Origin: Antennarius striatus
Lineage: Eukaryota; Chordata; Actinopteri; Lophiiformes; Antennariidae
Length of the DNA stretch: 64,000 nucleotides
Direction of reading: 5' to 3'
NCBI RefSeq assembly: GCF_040054535.1
Contig: NC_090781.1
Location: forward strand, 7,492,982 to 7,556,981
A program made the translations under genes and the position numbers. Of the stretch, positions 21,656-53,630 are shown one piece after another. Positions within the stretch are counted from its first letter, which is position 1. Every line of letters begins with the position of its first letter. The notes beneath the pieces were generated by a model, which was not told where the DNA came from, made no database searches, and saw nothing but the letters and a program-made list of their open reading frames with translations.

Positions 21656-22061
21656 GCTAAGCGACGGTAAAATTATCGAACAAATTGTTATGCTGTTAGG
21701 TTTTACAAACAAAATAGTTAAGAAAAATGTTAGTTGAACTCATGGGATATTTCTGTGACGCTTTTTAACGAAAAGAAGAAAAAACAAAACCGGAAAACTA
21801 AACGGAAGTTTCTCCGTCGTTTGAACGTAAACATCCGCCTCGCCTTCACGCGTGCCTGTTAGCTCGGCGCTGGGTGCAGAGGGCAAGTAATGGTGCGTTT
21901 AACGTAACCAGCAATGGTGGTAGTGGCCGATTCAAATGCTACAGGACGAGCTAGCGCTAGCATGTCTCGCCCTGGACGAATAGAGAGGTCGTGGACTTTG
22001 CCCGGAGGACAAGCTGGGAGCTCCGAGAGGTGAGGACGCTGAGCCACAACACACAGCCACC

Positions 22062-23405
22062 ATGGGTTTGGTTCACTTGGTCATCTCCAGCGTAGGGAAA
22101 TGTCTGGACGCAGTTTGCTTGATGCTGGACGTGAACTTCCTCATCGTGCACACGGTGGTCCAAACGATCCTGGCTACAATCACGTTTGTAACCAGCCTGC
22201 CCACCCTCTTCCTCAACCTGGTGATGGACTGCGTGGACCTCCTCGTGTTCGGACTGGTGTCCGCGGCAGAAGCCACCTCAGATGTCGCCCACGGGACAGT
22301 CAGCGTGTTGTGGGGCTTGGTGCTGTCTGTGGAGGGGCTGCTGGAGAGCCTGAAGATGGTGGGGTACCTGTCCATCCACGTGGTGCTTCGTGGGAAGGAG
22401 CAGCTGTGTCGAGGTTTGCTGTCCTTGCTGGAGGGCTGCGGCATCGCCGCCAGTCTAGTCGTCTACTTGACCAACACTGTGATCAATTTTGCACTCATCG
22501 CTACCCAGAATGTTTACGTGGCAGTGGTCAATGTGTGTCAGATGCTCTCCAGTCCACTGCAGAATGTGCTGGAGCTCTTGCTCACTTCCTTCACCTTCCT
22601 GTACAGCAGCCTGGTTGGGACGTCTACTTTCCTGTGGTCACCCTGTAAGCTGGTGCTGGACTTTGTGGTTTCCCTGGTCCATATGTTCATCAGCATCTTC
22701 ATCCTGAACACCCACGGCCTCCTCCTCACCGTCACGATTGCTCTGATCACCACTGCCTACCTGAATCCAGATCAGACGCGAGCGATTGCTGTACAAGTTA
22801 TGCAGTATATCAACACTTTTCCTGCTCTGCGTAGACTTTATCTGACTCTTCACCACCTCGCTTCCACCGTGTGGGGTGCTCCAGATTTTATGCGTGGCAT
22901 CATGCTGAACCTTCCCAGGATTCTCCATCAAGTCTACCTGTTGGAAAGGGGACTGATGCAGCAGCTGTCGCAGCTCAGCAGCCAGCTAGCGTGGAGGACG
23001 TGGTTTCACGGCAACAGAGTGCGTGGCGATGGTCACCCTGGGGAGGAGCAGCGGGACCCACCGGATGGAAGATCGGGAGACACAGACCACCATGAGGTAC
23101 CGGGGTTAGTTCCCCTCTCAACAAGCACAGCCAGACAACGGAGGGAGGAGTCTTTGTCGTCTTCATCAGGCAAAGGCAGTAAACCTATGCCCACTGAAAA
23201 TCTGCTAAACCTGTTGAAGGAGCAGGAGGACAGGAAGAAGTGTGTCATCTGTCAGGACATTTCCAAGACGGTGGTGTTGCTGCCCTGCAGGCACCTGTGC
23301 TTGTGCAGAGACTGCACCAACATCCTGCTCAGGCAGCCCGTGTACCAACAGAACTGCCCGCTTTGTCGCCGCATGATCTTCAACACGATGGACGTGTATC
23401 TATGA
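22062..23405 (+). CDS. rnf26: E3 ubiquitin-protein ligase RNF26
   Basis: A single-exon frame of 447 codons, close to the human protein (433 aa, also intronless in its coding part). Residues about 20-245 are largely hydrophobic and contain several membrane spans; a variable Ser/Gly/Asp-rich linker follows (about 315-385). The C-terminus is a RING finger of the cIAP-like spacing: C394, C397, C409, H411, C415, C418, C432, C435, ending NTMDVYL. RNF26 is an ER membrane ligase known for organising perinuclear endosomes and for modifying STING. The start has a good context (GCCACCATGG) and follows a CpG-rich leader. All eight zinc ligands are present, so the protein looks functional. Its neighbours match human 11q23.3. 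Confidence 0.95.
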   Translation: MGLVHLVISSVGKCLDAVCLMLDVNFLIVHTVVQTILATITFVTSLPTLFLNLVMDCVDLLVFGLVSAAEATSDVAHGTVSVLWGLVLSVEGLLESLKMVGYLSIHVVLRGKEQLCRGLLSLLEGCGIAASLVVYLTNTVINFALIATQNVYVAVVNVCQMLSSPLQNVLELLLTSFTFLYSSLVGTSTFLWSPCKLVLDFVVSLVHMFISIFILNTHGLLLTVTIALITTAYLNPDQTRAIAVQVMQYINTFPALRRLYLTLHHLASTVWGAPDFMRGIMLNLPRILHQVYLLERGLMQQLSQLSSQLAWRTWFHGNRVRGDGHPGEEQRDPPDGRSGDTDHHEVPGLVPLSTSTARQRREESLSSSSGKGSKPMPTENLLNLLKEQEDRKKCVICQDISKTVVLLPCRHLCLCRDCTNILLRQPVYQQNCPLCRRMIFNTMDVYL

Positions 23406-30812: not shown

Positions 30813-31333
30813 TCAAGCAAACACAGCAGAGTTCTTCCAGTCTGAGTACACTAGAAACCCCGTGAAGGTGCTGTCTGTCTTGCTGCTGGAGTAAAATCCA
30901 TTGTACTCCGCCATTGCCATCTGGACCCAGACCTGGTCCCCAGGGATGAGGTGGAGCAGCGAGCTTCCAGACAGAGATGCCGGTTTGGGCCAGTTGCCGA
31001 AGAACTGAAAGTAAGATGCCACCGTATGGCCGTTCTTCATCAGGTCGAACTGGAGGCTGGCGCGGTAGACTGTGGCGTGGATGACAAAGTAGTAAACTCC
31101 AGGGACTTTACAGGTGAAGCGTCCTGTCTCGGAGTTGTAGTCACCCTGCTCATTGATGATGGCCTTGTCGAAGCAGACTACGCTACCTACGGTGAGGGGT
31201 AGAGGTAGACCCTCTGATAGTTTGGCGCTGAAGGCTGATTTTGGGGCTACTGCACATTCTCCCGGCTTGCCTGCGTCCCCTTTTTCTCCAGGGTCACCTC
31301 TGTCACCGGTCAGGCCTCGCGCTCCTGTCTCAC
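30813..31333 (-). CDS. c1qtnf5: c1qtnf5 coding exon 2
   Basis: It runs from the acceptor CTCCTCAG|GTGAGACAGG to the TGA at 30815-30813. It holds the second half of the collagen stretch and the whole C1q domain. The split Gly codon (G|GT) keeps the Gly-X-Y register across the splice. Confidence 0.93.
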
Positions 31334-31645
31334 CTGAGGAGGAGGAGACAAACATGAGGAGCTACTGCGGACATGTAGGACACACACACTCATCAATAAA
31401 ACAAACAGAACACCTGGGTCTCCCGTGTCGCCTTTCTGTCCCTTCTCTCCTGGAGCTGCATCTCTCCCGTCCCTCCCATCTCTTCCCGGCTGACCAGGGC
31501 TGCCATGAACTCCAGGGGAGCCTGGGATACCTGGATGGCTGGTGCACAGACTGGGAGGAAGCTGGTGGTCGTCTACCTGTTTGGATAGATGGACGTGGAG
31601 GACAAGGAGGGAGTGTAGAAGGGGCAGCAGCCTTGGAGAGGCCAT
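30813..31645 (-). CDS. c1qtnf5: Complement C1q tumour necrosis factor-related protein 5 (CTRP5)
   Basis: Two coding exons, 31414-31645 and 30813-31333, joined at clean GT/AG sites inside a Gly codon, give 250 residues (human 243). The order is a signal peptide ([18 protein letters not shown]), a short linker, a collagen Gly-X-Y stretch of about 60 residues and a globular C1q domain from about residue 110. Diagnostic segments shared with human CTRP5 are [29 protein letters not shown] and the C-terminus [10 protein letters not shown]. The protein is secreted and trimerises; human mutations cause late-onset retinal degeneration. One Gly-X-Y register break occurs at RDAAPGEKG, where Ala replaces the expected Gly. 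In human the gene overlaps MFRP, but no MFRP exon is visible upstream here. Confidence 0.95.
31414..31645 (-). CDS. c1qtnf5: c1qtnf5 coding exon 1
   Basis: It runs from the ATG at 31645-31643 to GACCCAG|GTGTTC. It encodes the signal peptide and the first half of the collagen stretch (77 codons plus one base). An acceptor-like TTCTCAG ending at 31663 suggests that the exon begins at 31662 and that an upstream noncoding exon exists. Confidence 0.9.
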
Positions 31646-32160
31646 TGTAGCGTCACGGCTGGCTGAGAACAGAGAATATAGACAGAGCACAGTGATGGTC
31701 ATTTTGGACAAAAGTCACTTCAAATCAGACAGGATTAGCAGTTGTACATTAACAGAAAAAAATCTTAATGATAATCACCATTTTAAGATTTTTTTGAGTA
31801 CAGAAAGGATTCGCTGTTAAATCCAGTAACTTTAAATATGTTGAAACATATCTGAGAGTTGAAGTCTAATCAACACGTGGAACTGTTTATTAAAGGGGCC
31901 CTATTATGAAAATCACACAACTCCTAGAATCTGGTAAACAAACACTTCCTGCATCAATAGATGTTTGTTTTAGGAAGTCATGGCTCTGAACGACTCGAAT
32001 CGATCACATAGCGCTAGAATCCCCGTTCTTGATGTCAGACTAGGGACTCTGTGCTATTGGACAGAGTATTGGACGATATGGATTGGTTGACATGCCCAAG
32101 GGCGTGGCCGTCCCCAAGACAGAGTTCTTTGTGTGGGACGTGAGGCAGCAGTCTGTTGAA

Positions 32161-33872
32161 ATGGCGTCCGTGAGAAGGAGACATGAAAGTTGCTCAGTTG
32201 TTGATTGTACAAATCAACACCAGTGTTTACTTTTCATCCCATCCAATGAAGAACTGAAGAGACCGTGGTTGCATTTCATTTTTAATGGCTATGTGCGGCT
32301 ACATCGCTGCTCGTCTGTTTGTGTGTGGAACCACTTCACTCCAGTCTGTTTTAGCAATGAGGGTCAGTCCAGACGGGGCTTTGCCTGAGACTGATCCTCA
32401 TTCAAGGATCACTCCCAACCACACGGGACCAAGAACCTGCACCCTGGTTACAGGTAAGTCTCACCACATTTATCTTTTAGCAGTTGTCTGTTAGCATGAG
32501 TGATCGAGTTCTATTTGGCTAATTAGGTGGTACTGCTTTGTTTCGCATTTGCATGTGTGTGCGTGCACGCTCCAACACGTGTGTACATGCTGGACCTACA
32601 GTAGGTATAACACACGTAAGTTGGTCTCATATTTTTTTGTGGTTTGTTAGCATTAATGAGGTCATGTTATTCTTGGCTTTGCGTTTGAGTGCCGGACCTA
32701 CAGTATAAAGCTAAAACACACGAAAGTTGGTCTCATATTTTCTTTCCTGTTATCTGTCAGCATAAACAAAGTCAACTTATGCTAGGCTACGTAGGGAGTT
32801 GTGTTTTGTTTCGTATTGTGTGTGCGCACACGTGTCAGATTCGCTTGTTTGTTCGGCGTCATAGCGACAACGCACACAGGTCTGTCCTCCTTACCCAAAA
32901 TCAGAACATTGGTGTCCTGAAATTAGTGTCCCTTTTCCTTAAGCATCCTTTCAGCCCACAGCTTCAATGGACGTGGGGGGCCAAACTGACCCAGTGGACA
33001 CCCATACTGTTGGTACACAGCTGTCCTTCAGGACTCTTCATTCCCACTATTGAAGTAAAGGTATGTACAAGTCATATTCCATACAATATGTTTTAATAAA
33101 GTTGTTTAAATAGACTAATTTTCTAAATATAGTTGTCTATAGGTGTTAGTGAATGCACATGTGTTGATAGTAGTTCAGTAAAAAATAATATTGTTGTGTA
33201 TTAGAATATTCCAGCAAGACAGTAAGTGAAGAGTTTAGTATAAATTTTTGAGACAGATTCATGTATGTCATATATTGTTTTGGCTCCTTATGTCGTTACG
33301 TTTGGTGTACCCCTCTACAAGATCCACGTTCCAAAGGCTTTTGAAGGGACAATGCAGAGTCAAACCTCACAAGACAGAGCCAACATTCTGTTAGTGTTGT
33401 AATATTTTAATATTTCAAACAAACATGTTTTCAAATTCTGTTGGTAATTGTTCGCACCAAAACACAGTGAAAAGTAACCATACAAATAAATAAATTAGTA
33501 GCAAGTACCAGGATGTATTTTGAACACAATTTTTCTACACAAAGAAATGAATCAAACAATATCAATAACAGTAAAGATCTATCTTTGCGTTTTATTGAAC
33601 AGGTTTTGTAGCTGACATGTTGGACCTCATATGTAACAAAGTCTTGGTGGACCCCGTGCCATACACAAATGAGATGTTGTCCATTCCTCTCCCCGAGAAT
33701 CTGTCTGCCCAGTATGAGCGTCCGGACAAGGAGGAGGTCATTGCCAGCTACATGACCGGGTTCAACCAAGACTCGGTCTAAATCCAGGGTAGTGGCCTTT
33801 GTCTTCAGGAAACTCCTGGCGTATGTGAAGGACCCCACAGGCTGGGATGACGACCCGGATTCTGCGTCCTAA
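32161..33872 (+). pseudogene. Broken THAP-domain gene of the TTAA element
   Basis: Exon A starts at 32161 (MASVRRRHESCSVVDC) and shows a THAP-like pattern: C-x4-C, then a Trp in KRPWLHF and a C/H pair before FTPVCF. A small length change near 32322 spoils the canonical C-x2-H spacing and a TGA follows at 32386. A GTAAGT donor lies at 32452. Probable exon B is about 32954-33060 (CAG|CTTCAATGG to AAAG|GTATGT) with a VGTQLSFRTLHSH segment before a stop. Probable exon C starts near 33608 after AACAG; it encodes LSAQYERPDKEEVIASYM, then a one-base frameshift, then a tail ending TGWDDDPDSAS. A polyadenylation signal AATAAA is at 34054-34059. Exon joins are inference. Confidence 0.5.
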
Positions 33873-34280
33873 GTGGCCCCAGCACCAGCCAACAAAGGTG
33901 TGATAGGCCAGATGTCTGCACCGTCTACAGAAAAAGGACACAAAACTATTTATTTCACAATGTTTTCAATCCCGAGTATTACAACTGTTGTTGATTTCCA
34001 GATAGGATGGCTCTGTGTTCTCATTATTGTTATTGGATGTATTGTTTTATGTAAATAAATGCTTGTATATGTCAACAGAAATGGATTGTGAATACCAAAA
34101 AAAATTTAACATGTCTATTAATAAGATAAAAATAAAGGTGTCGCAAATACAATATATTAGACTTTGTTGTACCTACTGTATATTTGTCATGTGTTACTGC
34201 ATTAATGAAGGAATGTCTGATGAAGCAAAATAAGACATAACTAGTTTTTATTCTGTGACATTTTTAAAAGAACGACTTAC

Positions 34281-35157
34281 CGATGTATTGGTCTCAGACG
34301 TGAAGGGCCATACTCGGCCCTCAGTACGTGACCGGCCGTTTGTAGGGTGTACACGTTTAGGCACACAGGCTGGAACCCAGGATGTTGAGTCATGCACGGA
34401 ACCTCATCAACCTCCTGCAGACGGCTCCTAACCTACAGTGAAAAACATGGTAAAGGTCATTTGAATTTATAATTGTAAAAGTAGCCAAATAGAGACATAA
34501 CTTTGTGGTTTAGCTGTGAGCTTGCTACTTGTGGTATCTCCATACAGTCAGTGTCCACAGGGACACCTGTACAACAGGTGAAGACACCTCAAAATAGAGC
34601 ATATATAAAGGCATCACTGCAATATGGTTACATCATTTCACCATTAACCTGGTGTGATGGTGGCAGGTGTTAGCTCTGTGTGTCTTGTCACAGAGGACTG
34701 CCTCAAATATTTAGCAGCTTAGTAACGGGTTTAATCAATGTGATAGAAAAATAAAGTAACTTAGCCGTGAGCAGAAGCTAGCATTAGCCACATGGTAATA
34801 ACTATCAGAACCACCATCAGACTTTACTGTCACTTATAGAAATACAGCAACATTTTTGCAGTCAACACGTCCTTATATATACAAAGTACATAATAACACA
34901 GATATGACATTATTATTGTGTGATGAGAGGCGGGAGTAGAAACAAAAGTAGTTACCGGACGATGCTCCAGTCCTGTGATGACGCAGGTTACAAAACAAAA
35001 CACAACGCAGAACCAACTAAGTACCGTTCACACGTACTAACCATTCAGAAACGTCCTGCTGCAGCCGCACAGTCGGTGTTTCTTCAGGAGCCCCCGCTTC
35101 TGGGTCTGACTCAGGGTCATAAATGTACGCCGACACGACGGGTCCTCCAAACGCCAT
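34281..35157 (-). pseudogene. Broken P2X7 cytoplasmic-tail-like gene in the TTAA element
   Basis: Exon 1 (35157-35042) starts MAFGGPVVSAYIYDPESDPE and ends TGAATG|GTTAGT in phase 2. A candidate exon 2 begins at 34566 after TTGTACAG; the joined frame gives W-C-P-C-G-H and then a TGA where a Cys codon is expected. Exon 3 (34432-34281) lies between TGTAG and CG|GTAAGT and encodes CMTQHPGFQPVCLNVYTLQT. The acidic start, WCxCGxC motif and CxTQHPGFQxVCLN motif resemble the cysteine-rich cytoplasmic tail of the P2X7 receptor, a domain also present in many standalone fish and invertebrate proteins. It is a relic: a stop in exon 2, and the exon 2/3 phase is not confirmed. Confidence 0.5.
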
Positions 35158-36636
35158 AATGATAACAAACGTAACTCCGGTCAGTGTCCCGTTAGCCTAA
35201 CGCTCTCCTTCAGAGGGGCGTGGCCCAGGTGAAGGAGGCGTGGACCAGTGGAGCTCATTAACATACTGCAGCCGGAGGCCTGAAACGAAGCGTTTTGTGA
35301 GTAGCTGAGATGAGCGATTTTGAAAAGCTGATATTTAGAAGCACAGATCACTTTAGGTCAGAATATTTGGAATAGAGTCTAGTTGGACATCTGGCAGCTG
35401 AATGACATTAAGTTAAAAATACATAATATGGGACCTTTAAAGCAGGTTCAGGTTTTGGTGATACAGCGTTCTCATAGAATGTGCTCAAAGTCATAATATT
35501 AAGACAGGCTCTGTTTCGGAGAAGGCATGTGACAAGAAGTGATGGAGAAAATGGCCAGAAATAGACCCAAACAGAAAGCAGGACTTTCATTTGGCATACA
35601 TCCACTATCCAGGACACCACCCAAACTGGATTAATACCGTGACAGCATATTAAATATATTCCTGAGCCAATGATGAATCATGTCTGTTGGTTTCTGAACA
35701 GATGAGTCACATTAAAGCTTGACGAGATGCTGAAAACAAGACTTCAGAATCTCTTGAAGTCTTTCCTTTAAGTTGATTCCTGGTTTTTCCTGACGGGCCT
35801 TTTGGTCAAGTGAAGCAAACTCCTCTCAACTACAGACATTTGACTGTTTGAGTGTGAGGCAGGTGTTGCAGGACCATAAATGGAATTGATGAGCAAAACA
35901 AGAGGGCTCATTTTTTGCTATTTTTGCAACGCTGTGTTTCCTGATGGGAAGAAAGATCTTACGGTCTTGGGGACCGGAGGGCAGAGTGCGTTCCAGCTGT
36001 ATATGTATTCATAAGGATTGAAAAACGTATTTCCAGACATGGGAATAATGACGTTCATTAAAATATTAAATATGCTTCTTTTTTTTCTTTTTTTTCAAAG
36101 CTGAAAGAAAGGAATGAAAAAAGAGTGAAGCAGTAAGAAAAATTGGGGAGGGGAAAGAAATACATGTCAGCATTCCTGGCAGAGTACGGGAACGGCCAAG
36201 AGGACAAATACTGTCTGAGCAGCTGTCTGCCATGGCTTGTAAGCAAACCTCATGATTCGAAACAGATTTTCAGTCGCTGCTGAAAAAATGAGTCCACCGT
36301 TTCTAGACCACTGAAAATAGACCTAACCGCTGGTGTTTGATTAGCTGAACTCTTCATCATCTGAATGATTGAGTATGTTAGAGTCAGATCAACCACTAGA
36401 TTTTTCGTAAGACACAAATCAAAGAAATCCAGTAGATATTTATCATAGTTCAATTTACTTATACATTATTTAACCAGAAAAGTCCCAATAAGATTCTAGT
36501 TGTCTTTATCCAGGGAGTCCCACCAAGATGGCAGCATAATTATTGAAAATGGAATAAGAATAGAAAATAGACAAACAAGAAAAGAAGTCATCCACTTTAT
36601 TGTTCCTCTGTGGGAAAATTATTGTCTTACTCTTAC

Positions 36637-38720: not shown

Positions 38721-39323
38721 AGCTGGGGTGGATGGACCCCCATGAAGACCGGATCTAGCAGCAGGCTGAAGAGCTCCACGGTGCTCCAGCACCATCATGG
38801 CCACTGGGCTGCCAGGGAGGGTCCTGTGGAGAAACATGCATCCAGTTCCGGGGGGTGTCATGAGTGTTACTGGTATTATACTGTAGATGGTGCAGGTAAC
38901 GTTAGCTGCTGTTCGTCCAAAGGAAAATTCATAATGACTCCTAGTTTATGTTCAGGGTTTATTGTCACTCTTTATTATTCAAAATCCAAATCTAAACTGT
39001 TGTGTGTGTCATTTTTATGGTTCTCTTGGGGGGGAAGTAAAACAAATCATGTTTTCCTGTTTTTTCACAGGTTGTCTTCTTGACTGCTATCACCCTAATG
39101 GAGACCTTGAACCCACCACTCTGACTGGAGCGTTATGTTCTCCCGAGAAGAACTGGACAGTGAACAGAACAGTATTTTCCGCACTATAAGGCGCACCTAA
39201 GGGCCTTTGATTTTCTCAAAAACCGACAGTGCGTTTTATAATCCAGTTTTGAAATAGGCCATTCATTGAAGGTGCACCTTATAATCAGATGCACCTTATA
39301 GTGCGGAAAATCCTGTAGTTGCC
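38721..39323 (+). other. fkrp: Inferred fkrp 5' leader: exons 38721-38895 and 39071-39323
   Basis: An acceptor-like GCTAACAG ends at 38720, a good donor GCAG|GTAACG follows 38895, and a strong acceptor TTTTTTCACAG ends at 39070. The last leader exon runs into the FKRP start codon. FKRP in mammals also has noncoding first exons. The leader carries upstream ATGs, including a 21-codon uORF at 39135-39200 whose end lies in the foldback element. Exon structure is inferred from splice motifs only. Confidence 0.4.
39170..39315. mobile_element. Foldback MITE, copy 2, ending 8 bases before the fkrp ATG
   Basis: The left end CAGTATTTTCCGCACTATAAG and the right end CTTATAGTGCGGAAAATCCTG are terminal inverted repeats; TA follows at 39316-39317. 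The in-frame stop that closes the FKRP frame upstream (TAA near 39282) lies inside it. It belongs to the same family as 4613-4777 and 47997-48119. Confidence 0.8.
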
Positions 39324-40922
39324 ATGCGGATCAGTCTCTGCCAGGGCCTGCTGACCGGCGCCATCATCCTCAACCTCCTCATCCTCTACTATGTTTCCCG
39401 AGCTCAGCAAAAAATGATGGACAAGAGGAAGGAGCTGGGCCGGGGCGCGAGGAGGGCCTCCCTCCCAGCCTCTGGACTGGCAGGAGGCCTGGGGATGCTG
39501 GCTGGAGCTGGTGGTGACCCTGGGGTGATTGGAGGTGAAGGCCACAGTCGTGGCCCCCGTGTGACTGTTCTTCTCCGGGAGTTTGAAAACTTTGAGAATT
39601 ACGTTGGAGATGTGGCGAATTCCTTCCTTCGCCAGAGACCTGAGCTTCCTTTCCTAGCTGTGGCCGACACGTTGCCGTACCCCCCACTGGTGATTCCAGA
39701 AGGAGCGCGGCTCCTGGTGCTCTCCCCCTCCCCTGATCAGCCGCCGCAAACTCACCGGCCAGAGTTCCACGTCCAGACGGAGTTTGTGCTGCTGGTGCCT
39801 GATGGGGTGGAGCTGGAGCAACATCGCTCCGTAGAGAGGCTGATCAGGGAGCTGGAGGGTGAGGGTGGGGGGCCTGTGAGGTTGGTAGCTGCGCCTGTGT
39901 TGGCTCGATCCGCCGTTCATTGCCTCCACCTGCGGGTGAACCTCAGAGAGTGGACCGCCACCTACTCGCCAGCTGCGTCTGGCAGTAGTGGGAGTGTGTG
40001 TACGGCCTTGCAGGGAGACGCCGTGGTCCTCATGCGAACGGAGGACCTGTTCAACCTCTCCGTCCCTCTGGGACGGCCCCTCTTCTCCTCGCTCTTCGTC
40101 CAGACAGCCTTGAGGGGCTGGAAGGTGAAGCTGCTGGAGTGTCCGTGTTTCTCCTCCAACCACCGCCCCCTGTTCAGCTCCGCACACAACCAGTGGAAAG
40201 CCGACACCCGCCTCAAGGAGGCCACCGGGAAGCTGATGAGGAGCTTCGGTCTGAAGCGCCTCCTGCTGCCCGAGGGGAAGGAGCAGTGGTACGGCTGCAG
40301 CAAGGAGACGGCTCGCTGCTTTGGCACGGTGCAGGACGACACCCCCGACTACCTGTATCTGGATCGCTGGACACCCCCCTGCTGTCTGCGAGCCCTTAGG
40401 GAAACCACTAAGTATGTCATCAACATCCTGGAGTCTTCCGGTGTGCGCTACTGGCTGGAAGGGGGCACGCTGCTGGGGGCTGTCCGCCATCAGGACATCA
40501 TACCGTGGGATTACGACGTGGACCTGGGCATCTACCTGGAGGACGTGCCCAACTGTGACCACCTGAAGAACCTGGACTCGGGTTCTCTGGTGGACGCTAA
40601 CGGCTACGTGTGGGAGCGGGCCGTGGAAGGAGACTTCTACAGGGTTCAGTACAGCGAGGCCAACCACCTGCATGTCGACCTGTGGCCGTTCTATCCACGC
40701 AACGGAGTGATGACTAAGGACACGTGGACAGAGCACAAACAGGACGTGGAGTTCCCAGAACACTTCCTGCAGCCTCTGGTGCCCATGTCCTTCGCCGGCA
40801 TCACTGCCTACGGTCCCAACAACCACAGAGCCTTCCTAGAGCTCAAGTTTGGAGAAGGGGTAATCGAGAACCCCCAATATCCCAACTCTGCCAAAAAGAG
40901 GCTGGACAGAAGCAAATTATGA
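39324..40922 (+). CDS. fkrp: Fukutin-related protein, ribitol-5-phosphate transferase
   Basis: A single coding exon of 532 codons (human 495; the extra length is a Gly/Ala-rich insert at about residues 35-75 after the membrane anchor). The N-terminus [20 protein letters not shown] is a type II signal anchor. Next come a stem and an N-terminal domain with [19 protein letters not shown], then the catalytic domain. C325, C332, C353 and C354 match the human zinc-finger cysteines in spacing, and the DxD-type site lies in [13 protein letters not shown] (D396, D398, D400). The protein is a type II Golgi enzyme that adds ribitol-5-phosphate from CDP-ribitol to alpha-dystroglycan after fukutin. ATG 39324 is the first in-frame start after a stop. 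Long antisense frames are shadows. Confidence 0.97.
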
Positions 40923-50700: not shown

Positions 50701-53383
50701 GTATCTTATTTAAGCAACAAAGTAAACAAAGAATAAATGATAAGGACTGTCAACAAGGATACAGAGGAGTGGTTTCAAAGTCAAACATAATGAAAGTATT
50801 GTTAAACAGGAATGGTCTTCTAAGGTGTGTGTCTGAACAATGATCAGACCGTCTCTACGATGAGACGAGCAGCCAGTCATCATGACAGCCACAAGGTTTC
50901 CCTCCAGTCCTATGAAGATGATCTGAGGCTGCTGTTCTGTGCAGAGGCGATCATTATCAAGAATTTGAACAGGGAAATGTAGTTAAATAACAAACAAATG
51001 TTACACTGATTCTACAAGCTGATCTTACACAGCATGTCATAGCTCATCTGCCATTTATACATCAAACTTGTTGGAGCAGTTCCTTTCAGTAGATCTGTAA
51101 ATTATGGTTGAGATATTAATGTCTCATTCAAAAGTTCCTTTGCCGAGTTTCAGCAAAGCTAAAACACAGAATCGAACTTGAAATGCAGTACGTAAAATTC
51201 AAATGATGCCCAACCCTACACGTGACAACTCCATTTCAAACAAACCCTCCTTTAAATGGCATCTGCAAGAACGCCTCAGCTGGGGGCTGTGAGCAGCTTG
51301 GTGAATGCCAACCATTCCAGAGCAGCGCATCGCCATCAGCACCCAAGAGGCCAGAGGATGATGGAGTCTGAGGCGTCCACACGATGCCGGAACTTTTTGA
51401 AAACGCAACTTTTTGAAAACGATTCCAAGTCCACACGACAGCGTTTTCAAAAAAATCTCCATCCACACGTAAACGCATCAGTGCGTTTTCAAAGACGGCT
51501 ATAAGCATGCCAAACCATGTGGTGGCAGTATTGAGTCAAATTTTATCCAATAGGAATCCTCCGTGTTGTTGCGATTACGCCTTCCGTCCACACGACAACG
51601 CAGATATCCTGAGCGAAAATGAAACTTTTTGAAAACGCTGGCCTAGGTGGGTTTTTTTTTTTTAATAGCTGGGTCTGCGTTATCATGTGGACGGCCTATC
51701 CGCAACTTTTTAAAAACACTGACGTCTTGCCTTCGACGAAAAACCTCTATGACTTCATACTTATGGGCCCGTGTGTTGTGACAACAAAACACGGGAGGGT
51801 TCCTATTAAATTTGATAAATTTGATAAAATTTGACTCAATACTGCCACCACATGGTTTGGCATGCTTATAGCTGTCTTTGAAAACGCACTGATGCGTTTA
51901 CGTGTGAACGGAGATTTTTTTGAAAACGCTGTCGTGTGGACGCGAATCGTTTTCGATACGTTTTCAAAAAAATCCGTCATCGTGTGGACGGGGCCTGAGT
52001 GTAATGACCCACAGAACACCTGGATACACAACTGACCTGTACATGCAAAGATAATATGAAGGCATCTCCTCCTTTGTAAAGGAGAAGGTCAGACACACAC
52101 GTCACACAATGCAGTAACTGGTAATGTGTTCAGGTTTAACACACTTAACAATAACACACCCATCTAATGAATGGGCTGCTGGCTCAGACAAAGATCATCA
52201 GGACACTGAATAATTTTGGGGGTTAAAAAAAAAAAAAAGGTGGGTAAAAGAGGAAAAGTGCTGCTTCACAGAAGACGTTGTGTGAGACAGTACTTTAATA
52301 TGAAGCACTGTCTAAATAGACTGATGACAAACTATTGAAATCTCTTGGTCAATTGTTTGTGTACTCTGTCACCTCCCTTTGTAGCAGAAACGTGAGCCGG
52401 GACTCATAAATATGACGTGTTAAAGAAGAGCCGCCTGGATCCAATACAAGACGGAGAGAAGATCTGCATAGAATTTATTTTTGTTTTTTATCAGTTCTGA
52501 ATATTTATATCATCACACTGGAAAAGGATCTCACAGTATCAAACACACACACACACACACAAACACACCGCGTTTGACAAATTTGGCGCACACAGTCCAC
52601 AACACGTGTGTGGGGCTGGACGGCCAAAATGTGACCAAAAAACAAGTTTTGTGACGTGATTAAAATAAAACGCCGTAAAAGGACAGCAGCTATCCTCCCG
52701 GATAGCCTCGATCACCCACAAGCTGATGCAACTGCGTAAAGCCCTTACAGCACACACACGGGGAAACGACACGACACACGTGGTTTGACGAGACAGCGGG
52801 GAGAAGTCTGACGTAAAAAAAACTTATTTTACAAGTCTGGAGTTTCTTTAGGCGAAGCGGGCAGGTGTGGAACTTACCTGATCAGATCTAGGAAGGAGTC
52901 TATCACTTCTTTGGGTTCAGGGACGTTGTCGTCCAGCGCTTCGATTTTGGTTATGGACACCGACCCCGGCGCCACGATGAACGCCATCACCACCCCGATG
53001 GAGGAGGCGATCAACGTGGTCACCAAGAAGAAGAGCATGGCCCAACCACCGAGCTTCCCCAGGGCTTTAGGGTCGATGCTGGCGGCCCCGGACACCAGGC
53101 TGCACACCACCAGAGGGATGATGATCATTTTCAGCAAACGGATGAGCAGATCGCCGGGGAAGCCGATGTAGATCATCTGGGTTCTGGAGAGGGTCACGTT
53201 GCGCACGGCGAGGCCGATCAAAACTCCGATGATGACCCCCGCCACGGTGAGAATCACCAGCAGATTAGCCATCACGATCCTCCTCACCCGCCGCGACAGC
53301 GGCTCGGGAGCCTTCCTCGGAGGGCTCGTCAGTCCGTTGGCAAGCGCCTCGCCGTTAGACGTCTTTCCTTCTTCTAGGTCCAT
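44543..53383 (-). CDS. slc1a5: Neutral amino acid transporter SLC1A5 (ASCT2)
   Basis: Eight coding exons, minus strand: 52878-53383, 47042-47084, 46890-46958, 46625-46791, 46248-46481, 45856-46050, 44923-45057, 44543-44765. All junctions have GT/AG and matching phase, giving 523 residues (human 541). The family signatures are present: hairpin 1 [14 protein letters not shown], helix 7 [18 protein letters not shown], hairpin 2 [18 protein letters not shown] and helix 8 [17 protein letters not shown]. The Cys in RTCTV is the residue that marks ASCT2; ASCT1 has Thr there. The product is a trimeric, sodium-dependent exchanger of glutamine, serine, alanine and other neutral amino acids at the plasma membrane. 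The C-terminus ESVL could bind PDZ domains. Human SLC1A5 lies near FKRP at 19q13.3. Intron 1 (5.8 kb) is full of transposon remnants. Confidence 0.95.
44923..45057 (-). CDS. slc1a5: slc1a5 exon 7
   Basis: It encodes hairpin 2 and the start of helix 8 ([31 protein letters not shown]). It was found by joining splice phases; the plus-strand frame here is a shadow. Confidence 0.95.
45856..46050 (-). CDS. slc1a5: slc1a5 exon 6
   Basis: It encodes the rest of hairpin 1 ([10 protein letters not shown]) and helix 7 with [15 protein letters not shown], which coordinates sodium and substrate in this family. Confidence 0.95.
46248..46481 (-). CDS. slc1a5: slc1a5 exon 5
   Basis: It encodes [20 protein letters not shown] through the start of hairpin 1 (FGTAS). 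It is bounded by CCACAG and GTAACC. Confidence 0.95.
46625..46791 (-). CDS. slc1a5: slc1a5 exon 4
   Basis: It encodes [20 protein letters not shown] through [16 protein letters not shown]. It ends in phase 2 and the Trp codon is completed in exon 5. Confidence 0.95.
46890..46958 (-). CDS. slc1a5: slc1a5 exon 3
   Basis: A 69-base, phase-0 exon encoding [20 protein letters not shown] and VEK, the extracellular loop. It has two N-glycosylation sequons (NGT, NIT). Confidence 0.93.
47042..47084 (-). CDS. slc1a5: slc1a5 exon 2
   Basis: A 43-base exon with CACAG before it and GTAAGT after it. It encodes [14 protein letters not shown], the conserved SLC1 segment after helix 3. It is too short to show as an open frame by itself. 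Confidence 0.93.
47997..48119. mobile_element. Foldback MITE, copy 3, in slc1a5 intron 1
   Basis: The left end TTATTTTCCACACTATAAGG and the right end CCTTATAGTGCAGAAAATACTG are terminal inverted repeats; TA follows at 48120-48121. The left end has mutated. Confidence 0.7.
48290..48880 (+). pseudogene. hAT-type transposase relic with decayed BED zinc finger
   Basis: The left part (GGAGTCACCAAATGGTGGACC, CGGTCCGGATCCAGACC) resembles the end of a fish hAT element. At about 48625-48765 the plus strand encodes [20 protein letters not shown] followed by [11 protein letters not shown]. This is the BED-type finger common to ZBED-like hAT transposases, but the second Cys is replaced by Tyr and the first His by Arg. 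The frame ends soon after. Confidence 0.55.
49608..49760. repeat. Truncated copy of the GTCCACACG palindrome family
   Basis: It begins GGCTATGTCCACACGTAGCC and continues with TTGAAAACGCTACATG and CGAAAAAATCTCCG. It shares these words with the full-length element at 51371-51994. Confidence 0.5.
51371..51994. mobile_element. Long-palindrome DNA element with GTCCACACG ends
   Basis: The element begins AGGCGTCCACACGATG and ends CATCGTGTGGACGGGGCCT. The arms extend for about 170 bases: GTGCGTTTTCAAAGACGG and GCATGCCAAACCATGTGGTG in the left arm recur as reverse complements in the right arm (51836-51900). The 280-base centre contains more TCCACACGACAACGC-type motifs. There is no coding frame. I could not confirm a target duplication. 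Confidence 0.7.
52878..53383 (-). CDS. slc1a5: slc1a5 exon 1 (coding)
   Basis: It encodes residues 1-168 plus two bases: the cytoplasmic N-terminus and the first membrane helices ([39 protein letters not shown]). It ends ATCAG|GTAAGTT. Confidence 0.95.
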
Positions 53384-53630
53384 TTTCTCTGGCGTTTTGT
53401 GTGTAAAGTTAACGACGTAACAGAAAGAAAGAAATTATTACGTAAGAACAACTGTCTCTGTGATGGAACTCACTTTAATGGCGACGAACACACGCCACCT
53501 GGTCTACGTTCGCCAGTACTTTGATGTCTGTCGAGCCAGCGCCTCTTTTTACAGGAGCGGGGGAAGCCCCGCCCCCTGTGACGTAAGGAGGGGTGTGTCT
53601 GAATATGATGCAATAGGAAATACTGTACTG
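53384..53630 (-). promoter_or_regulatory. slc1a5 promoter with ATF4-type (CARE), CRE-like and GC-box motifs
   Basis: TGATGCAAT at 53606-53614 matches the C/EBP-ATF response element consensus TGATGNAAN; it lies about 225 bases before the ATG. TGACGTAA (53579-53586) and a GC box CCCCGCCCCC (53567-53576) are next to it. On the minus strand a TAAAAAG box near 53545 could serve as a weak TATA element. SLC1A5 is a known amino-acid-stress (ATF4) target in mammals. Confidence 0.55.

Follow-up and report, generated by a model that had tools for sequence, protein, structure and literature searches.

Kolobok transposons of the Kol0 lineage (Kolobok-1_XT type) encode a transposase together with a second protein, KolX, which has the P2X7 ballast fold (Kojima & Bao 2022, PMC9587614). 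In the accessible part of that paper, KolX is proposed as the origin of both the P2X7 tail and Nanor, the RR/YY ends of Koloboks are contrasted with those of piggyBac, piggyBac versions of the KolX-like C-terminus are described as lacking most of seven cysteines, and the transposon location of standalone ballast proteins is said not to have been pointed out previously. These proteins were catalogued by Rump et al. 2020 (PMC7016195), where the portion available includes the Nanor genes of fish among them and reports a guanosine diphosphate (GDP)-binding region for P2X7. For Xenopus Koloboks, the excerpted text of PMC6004289 gives TTAA, AGGRR termini (T2-type) and THAP as hallmarks. Here, we analysed a 64,000-nt stretch of the genome of the fish Antennarius striatus (the window), which contains a 3,543-bp transposon copy carrying a THAP-type transposase gene and, convergently, a KolX gene. 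Very probably, the element is a single member of an abundant Kolobok (Kol0-type) family that carries KolX and whose copies appear to be mostly non-autonomous. Given that the link between KolX, Kolobok and P2X7 was already published in 2022, the window provides a clear example of it and not a new discovery.

Relatives of the element were sought in the genome of the same species (548 Mb, 42 contigs; G000), and unmarked coordinates are those of the window. The last exon of the transposase scored at no fewer than 150 places (209 candidates) and so did the KolX tail (at least 150; 227 candidates); both lists hold the best 150 places each, so the counts are lower bounds. We fetched 30 loci, one of them the window, as the best matches to the last transposase exon without selecting for KolX. 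KolX exon 4 lay just downstream on the opposite strand in all 30 (29 besides the window); 25 of the loci also had exon 3, and 23 had exon 1. Between the two genome lists, at least 121 of the 150 listed transposase ends had an opposite-strand KolX tail within 400 bp and none had one on the same strand; 66 of these pairs fell among the better-matching 75 ends and 55 among the rest, while random placement expects a mean of 0.02 pairs (contigs taken as 25 Mb each). Moreover, 14 element-length loci were fetched, six picked for long THAP-to-last-exon spacing and eight for good pairs, and some KolX exon 4 was present in every one. Both TTAA ends were found within three mismatches in eight of them (L060, L061, L072 and L074-L078), and all eight hold the THAP exon, the last exon and KolX exons 1-4. 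These represent seven independent insertions because L060 (C7:26416000-26423200) and L061 (C9:24975300-24982200) share flanks and look like a duplicated chromosome stretch.

This co-occurrence bears on a nested origin, in which the P2X7-like exons would be a separate gene or an insertion inside an ordinary THAP transposon. Such an origin could account for the 29 of 150 listed KolX tails that lie more than 400 bp from any listed transposase end, and for copies without the tail, such as L006, in which the left-end region and the right end are present yet only a 13-aa KolX piece remains. However, the convergent pairing at 30 of 30 fetched and at least 121 of 150 listed loci, together with both genes in all eight two-ended loci, argues against it, and some of the 29 transposase ends left unpaired between the lists (L011, L012, L014, L026 and L038) do have a KolX tail by local tblastn. 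Copies such as L006 are as expected of internal deletion derivatives, and no boundaries of a separate insertion were seen around the P2X7-like exons in the loci inspected. We consider a nested origin very improbable and reject it on the co-occurrence. The P2X7-tail gene belongs to the transposon, as a sequence-only reading of the window had supposed when it proposed a mobile element transporting a P2X7-type domain, and the two genes occur consistently within the same TTAA boundaries.

The same reading had likened the minus-strand exons to the P2X7 tail, and this likeness is upheld by both domain and structure matches. The KolX exons show GT/AG signals at their splice sites and stay in phase when joined, apart from a frame break at exon 2. 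Exons 3 and 4 joined matched P2RX7_C (PF20478) at E 4.6e-13 with 49.9 bits (cut-off 23.5), and the unspliced exon-4 frame matched it at E 1.9e-11. The top PDB matches of the KolX product were P2X7 chains (E 8.5e-06; E 6.9e-06 when exons 1-2 were included and the broken stretch was masked with X). When six single window frames were compared with Pfam, no relevant family appeared, only two sub-cut-off bacterial matches. KolX starts at its own ATG at 35157, 279 bp inside the element end, and no P2X channel family was among the Pfam matches for the scanned pieces that would indicate a channel domain fused to the ballast domain. The motif WCPCGH, noted earlier from the letters of the window, lies in no single frame; it comes about only when exon 1 (..GAATG) and exon 2 (G TGT CCC TGT GGA CAC) are spliced together, and in the window copy a stop follows it directly.

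We then compared exon 2 among the 30 fetched loci, where its splice ends were recognised in 17, a match without them was found in seven and none in six. The 38 nt of exon 2 in the window compare with 61-68 nt at 13 of the other 16 splice-recognised loci; the remaining three measure 84-104 nt, the pattern having started at an upstream repeat. It reads through without a stop in four of the 17 (L020, L030, L031 and L034), and the full CxCGHC...CC zinc motif is open in L020, L030 and L031, three of the 30 loci inspected. The family thus has a second gene with the ballast fold and conserved cysteines, as in Kol0; KolX is broken in the window, while intact members show the P2X7-type motif.

On the plus strand, a THAP-type gene with splice sites and a polyadenylation signal had been described, and these are present, but the gene is broken and its THAP domain is weakly recognised. 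Exon 1 has a stop after residue 75, exon 2 has another, and the middle of the gene, the DDE core, is missing; the window copy cannot encode a complete transposase and is therefore filed as non-autonomous. All 12 THAP exon copies compared, the 75-residue window exon included, matched PF05485 at E<=1 (best 7.7e-06), and no THAP match was obtained when the longer window frames were compared with Pfam. C-x4-C is kept in 12 of the 12 copies and C-x2-H in seven, the window copy not among them, and a profile of the exon had THAP2 and THAP1 as its sole PDB matches, both weak (E 0.17 and 0.81). A THAP DNA-binding domain, as in Koloboks, is present with this faint signal. In the window copy, the last transposase exon runs 20 bp into the coding end of KolX. 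An imperfect tandem duplication of ~95 bp (32588-32678 and 32690-32788, 75% identical) lies within the first transposase intron, where several other copies have related repeated blocks.

Candidate parts of the DDE core were found elsewhere in the family. At L064/L065 (one place), the motif GGDMRADS of the first D, with stops around it, precedes the motif VTDRH of the second D, and in L064 these are followed by the last exon and then by KolX on the opposite strand. An E motif, SLEAFHS, was found in L069. The D and E of these three motifs are taken to be the catalytic residues by the Kolobok pattern. The piece with the second D was found at 15 genome places (30 candidates) and the piece after it at 37, few compared with the 150 or more places each of the last exon and the KolX tail. 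At least four of the 15 (C14:16524526, C8:9239986, C2:6167183 and C8:11509745) have an opposite-strand KolX tail within ~3.5 kb, and at the remaining 11 no KolX tail was among the matches listed. A comparison of four transposase-core pieces with Pfam gave nothing useful.

The proposed matching ends beside TTAA were borne out as well. The termini AGGGGCCCTATTATG and AGGTCCCATATTATG agree at 12 of 15 positions, a match that is weak alone, being reached by 6 of the 21,442 TTAA pairs of the window. In the genome, the left-end region is repeated (41 matches listed, the best 40 of 678 first-look candidates having been scored), and its alignments start ~25 bases in, except for the window's own match. 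Among fetched loci whose outermost 25 bases matched, with L060 and L061 counted once, TTAA stood immediately before AGGGGCCC (TTAA/AGGGG) in 16 of 18 distinct left flanks, window included; the two exceptions were TTCA in L052 and CTAA in L048. By eye, the window copy lacks ~50-70 bp just inside the left end that other copies have. We also compared the 884 TTAA ends in the window with 13 published Xenopus Kolobok termini, and the left end of the element ranked first. Its first 16 bases are identical at 13 positions to the terminus AGGGGATCTATCATGA of the Xenopus Kolobok (XKol) subfamily A5 (AGGGGAACTATCATGA / AGGGGATCTATCATGA), the next best end scoring 11, and a score of 13 was reached by 13 of 176,800 shuffled ends. 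This comparison concerns the termini only; XKol A5 is longer, at 10,282 bp (PMC6004289, Table 5) versus 3,543 bp.

TTAA is also the target of piggyBac-type transposons, some of which encode a KolX-like C-terminus, and this raises the question of whether the element is one of them. The TTAA duplication is present at both ends of the window copy, as in Koloboks. Read inwards, the ends begin AGGGG... on the left and AGGTC... on the right, both RR and the left one also AGGRR; they are of the 5'-AG...CT-3' (RR/YY) form of Koloboks and not the non-RR/YY form of piggyBac. Further, a THAP-like domain is present, and CxCGHC...CC is kept in three copies, whereas the piggyBac versions, as described in the available part of PMC9587614, lack most of the cysteines. 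A piggyBac-type element is accordingly very unlikely.

We further considered whether the minus-strand gene could be a host gene, that is, a Nanor-like domesticated KolX with a conserved function at this locus, since standalone ballast Nanor genes are reported in fish (PMC7016195, in the part available). Against this, exon 2 breaks the reading frame and carries a stop, and the enclosing element occurs at no fewer than 150 places. Purifying selection was assessed among the copies by the ratio of third-position to first/second-position differences (bootstrap 95% interval in brackets). The ratio was 1.10 (0.70-1.49) for KolX exon 1 (22 sequences of 30 loci), 0.77 (0.51-1.04) for exon 3 (25 of 30), 1.06 (0.88-1.30) for exon 4 (28 of 30) and 0.89 (0.60-1.32) for the transposase end (30 of 30); the THAP exon gave 1.25 (1.03-1.49; 20 of 20), a slight third-position excess. 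Selection on the KolX exons is not visible among the copies, which also speaks against a conserved host function, and a host gene is hardly credible here. Even codon-position differences fit copies drifting after insertion.

Compared with the Kol0 lineage, the window element shares the TTAA target, the RR/YY ends, the THAP-type transposase and the second gene with a ballast domain; it differs in lacking the DDE core and in having both genes broken, and KolX here has four exons. The window copy is dead. Several points weigh against placing it among the Kol0 Koloboks that carry KolX. Two THAP matches had bit scores of 17.2 (L063) and 17.3 (L041), below the Pfam cut-off. D, D and E were never all in one copy among the loci inspected, and one narrow pattern run over the loci then fetched found no C/DxxH signature between the second D and E. 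The right terminus is absent from the 12 best window matches to Xenopus Kolobok ends. Four of the five exons show no visible codon-position constraint, leaving selection on KolX during the spread unsupported. Among the loci inspected, none was seen in which both genes are intact, a qualification to the sequence-only reading, which looked to intact copies encoding both. Kol0 membership, as read from the ends, the THAP-type domain and KolX, is probable.

KolX and the ballast domain of P2X7 (PF20478) and Nanor are homologous. They share a conserved tail with IRxEFPxxxGxYxGF at its end and, in intact copies, a CxCGxC-type zinc motif together with CC. Unlike the P2X7 receptor, KolX has no channel part, and its domain is split over exons 2-4. 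A host P2X7-type gene, its identity inferred from the tail, covers profile positions 39-192 in one exon (C3:8740540-8740965; L079) and matches PF20478 at E 1.9e-63; its tail is identical to a KolX composite at 33 of 124 aligned columns. Of the P2RX7_C matches listed in the genome, 141 of 146 begin, as KolX exon 4 does, no earlier than profile position 138. Another ballast match occupies a single exon (C9:173588-173857, L080; positions 105-192), and further single-exon matches (105-192 or 112-192) lie at C7:146694-146963 and C23:8970296-8970544. Unlike the window family, these would be either other ballast-domain genes or other Kolobok families. If the P2X7 tail came from KolX, the source may have been a version with fewer introns, or the introns may have been lost later.

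Cut-and-paste transposition at TTAA is the probable means by which the Kolobok family spread. Rarer copies would supply a full transposase that binds the ends through its THAP domain and acts in trans on the others. KolX may be an accessory factor of the element, given its continued association with the transposase both in the published lineage and in this family. By analogy with the GDP-binding region of P2X7 (PMC7016195, in the part available), one might guess that KolX is a partner of the transposase that binds guanine nucleotides or is structured by zinc. The main amplified form in this genome appears to have kept the KolX region and discarded the DDE core. In a stronger version, KolX (or its DNA) would for that reason be needed in cis, or made by these copies in trans, to aid transposition, as a selfish accessory factor and not baggage, and P2X7 would have captured a KolX without these introns, from an intron-poor lineage or a processed copy; we regard this combination as unlikely.

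Table 1. Features of the transposon copy and its two genes in the window
Feature	Position	Strand	Basis or remark
Left TTAA target-site copy	31890..31893		genome flanks and window ends
Transposon copy, Kolobok (Kol0-type), decayed, DDE core missing	31894..35436		3,543 bp
Left terminal inverted repeat AGGGGCCCTATTATG	31894..31908	+	TTAA-end comparison
Transposase exon 1, THAP-like DNA-binding domain, stop after residue 75	32161..32453	+	CAG/GTAAGT donor
Transposase exon 2 remnant, one stop, exact acceptor uncertain	about 32955..33060	+	sequence
Possible AATAAA signal for KolX	33591..33596	-	motif only
Transposase last exon, C-terminus, open	33603..33781	+	sequence
KolX exon 4, C-terminal part of P2X7 ballast domain, stop 33762-33764	33762..33924	-	Pfam, PDB
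AATAAA polyadenylation signal, transposase gene	34054..34059	+	motif only
KolX exon 3 (CMTQHPGFQPVCLNVY...)	34281..34432	-	Pfam P2RX7_C
KolX exon 2, zinc motif, 38 nt, out of frame versus other copies	34529..34566	-	splice-end comparison
KolX exon 1, acidic N-terminus, ATG at 35157	35042..35157	-	sequence
Right terminal inverted repeat AGGTCCCATATTATG	35422..35436	-	TTAA-end comparison
Right TTAA target-site copy	35437..35440		window sequence

By Pfam, the host genes in the window are a C1q gene with collagen (30816-31361, minus strand), a RING finger gene (21984-23402, plus strand), a fukutin-related protein gene (39285-40919, plus strand) and an exon of an SDF-family transporter (52877-53434, minus strand). 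In one element copy (L062:1678-3213), a frame of 512 codons resembles by eye the reverse transcriptase of a non-long-terminal-repeat retrotransposon. Relatives of the element were also sought in the viral_contigs, genome_contigs, phages and plasmids collections and none was found, as one would expect of an animal transposon. A literature search on KolX, P2X7 and Kolobok returned PMC9587614 as the only relevant paper; in the accessible text of PMC9319628, the two words stand unconnected.

Overall, the A. striatus family independently confirms in a fish, and puts numbers to, the transport of the P2X7 ballast domain as a gene of a transposon. Standalone P2X7-tail annotations in fish therefore need checking for Kolobok KolX before being taken for host genes.

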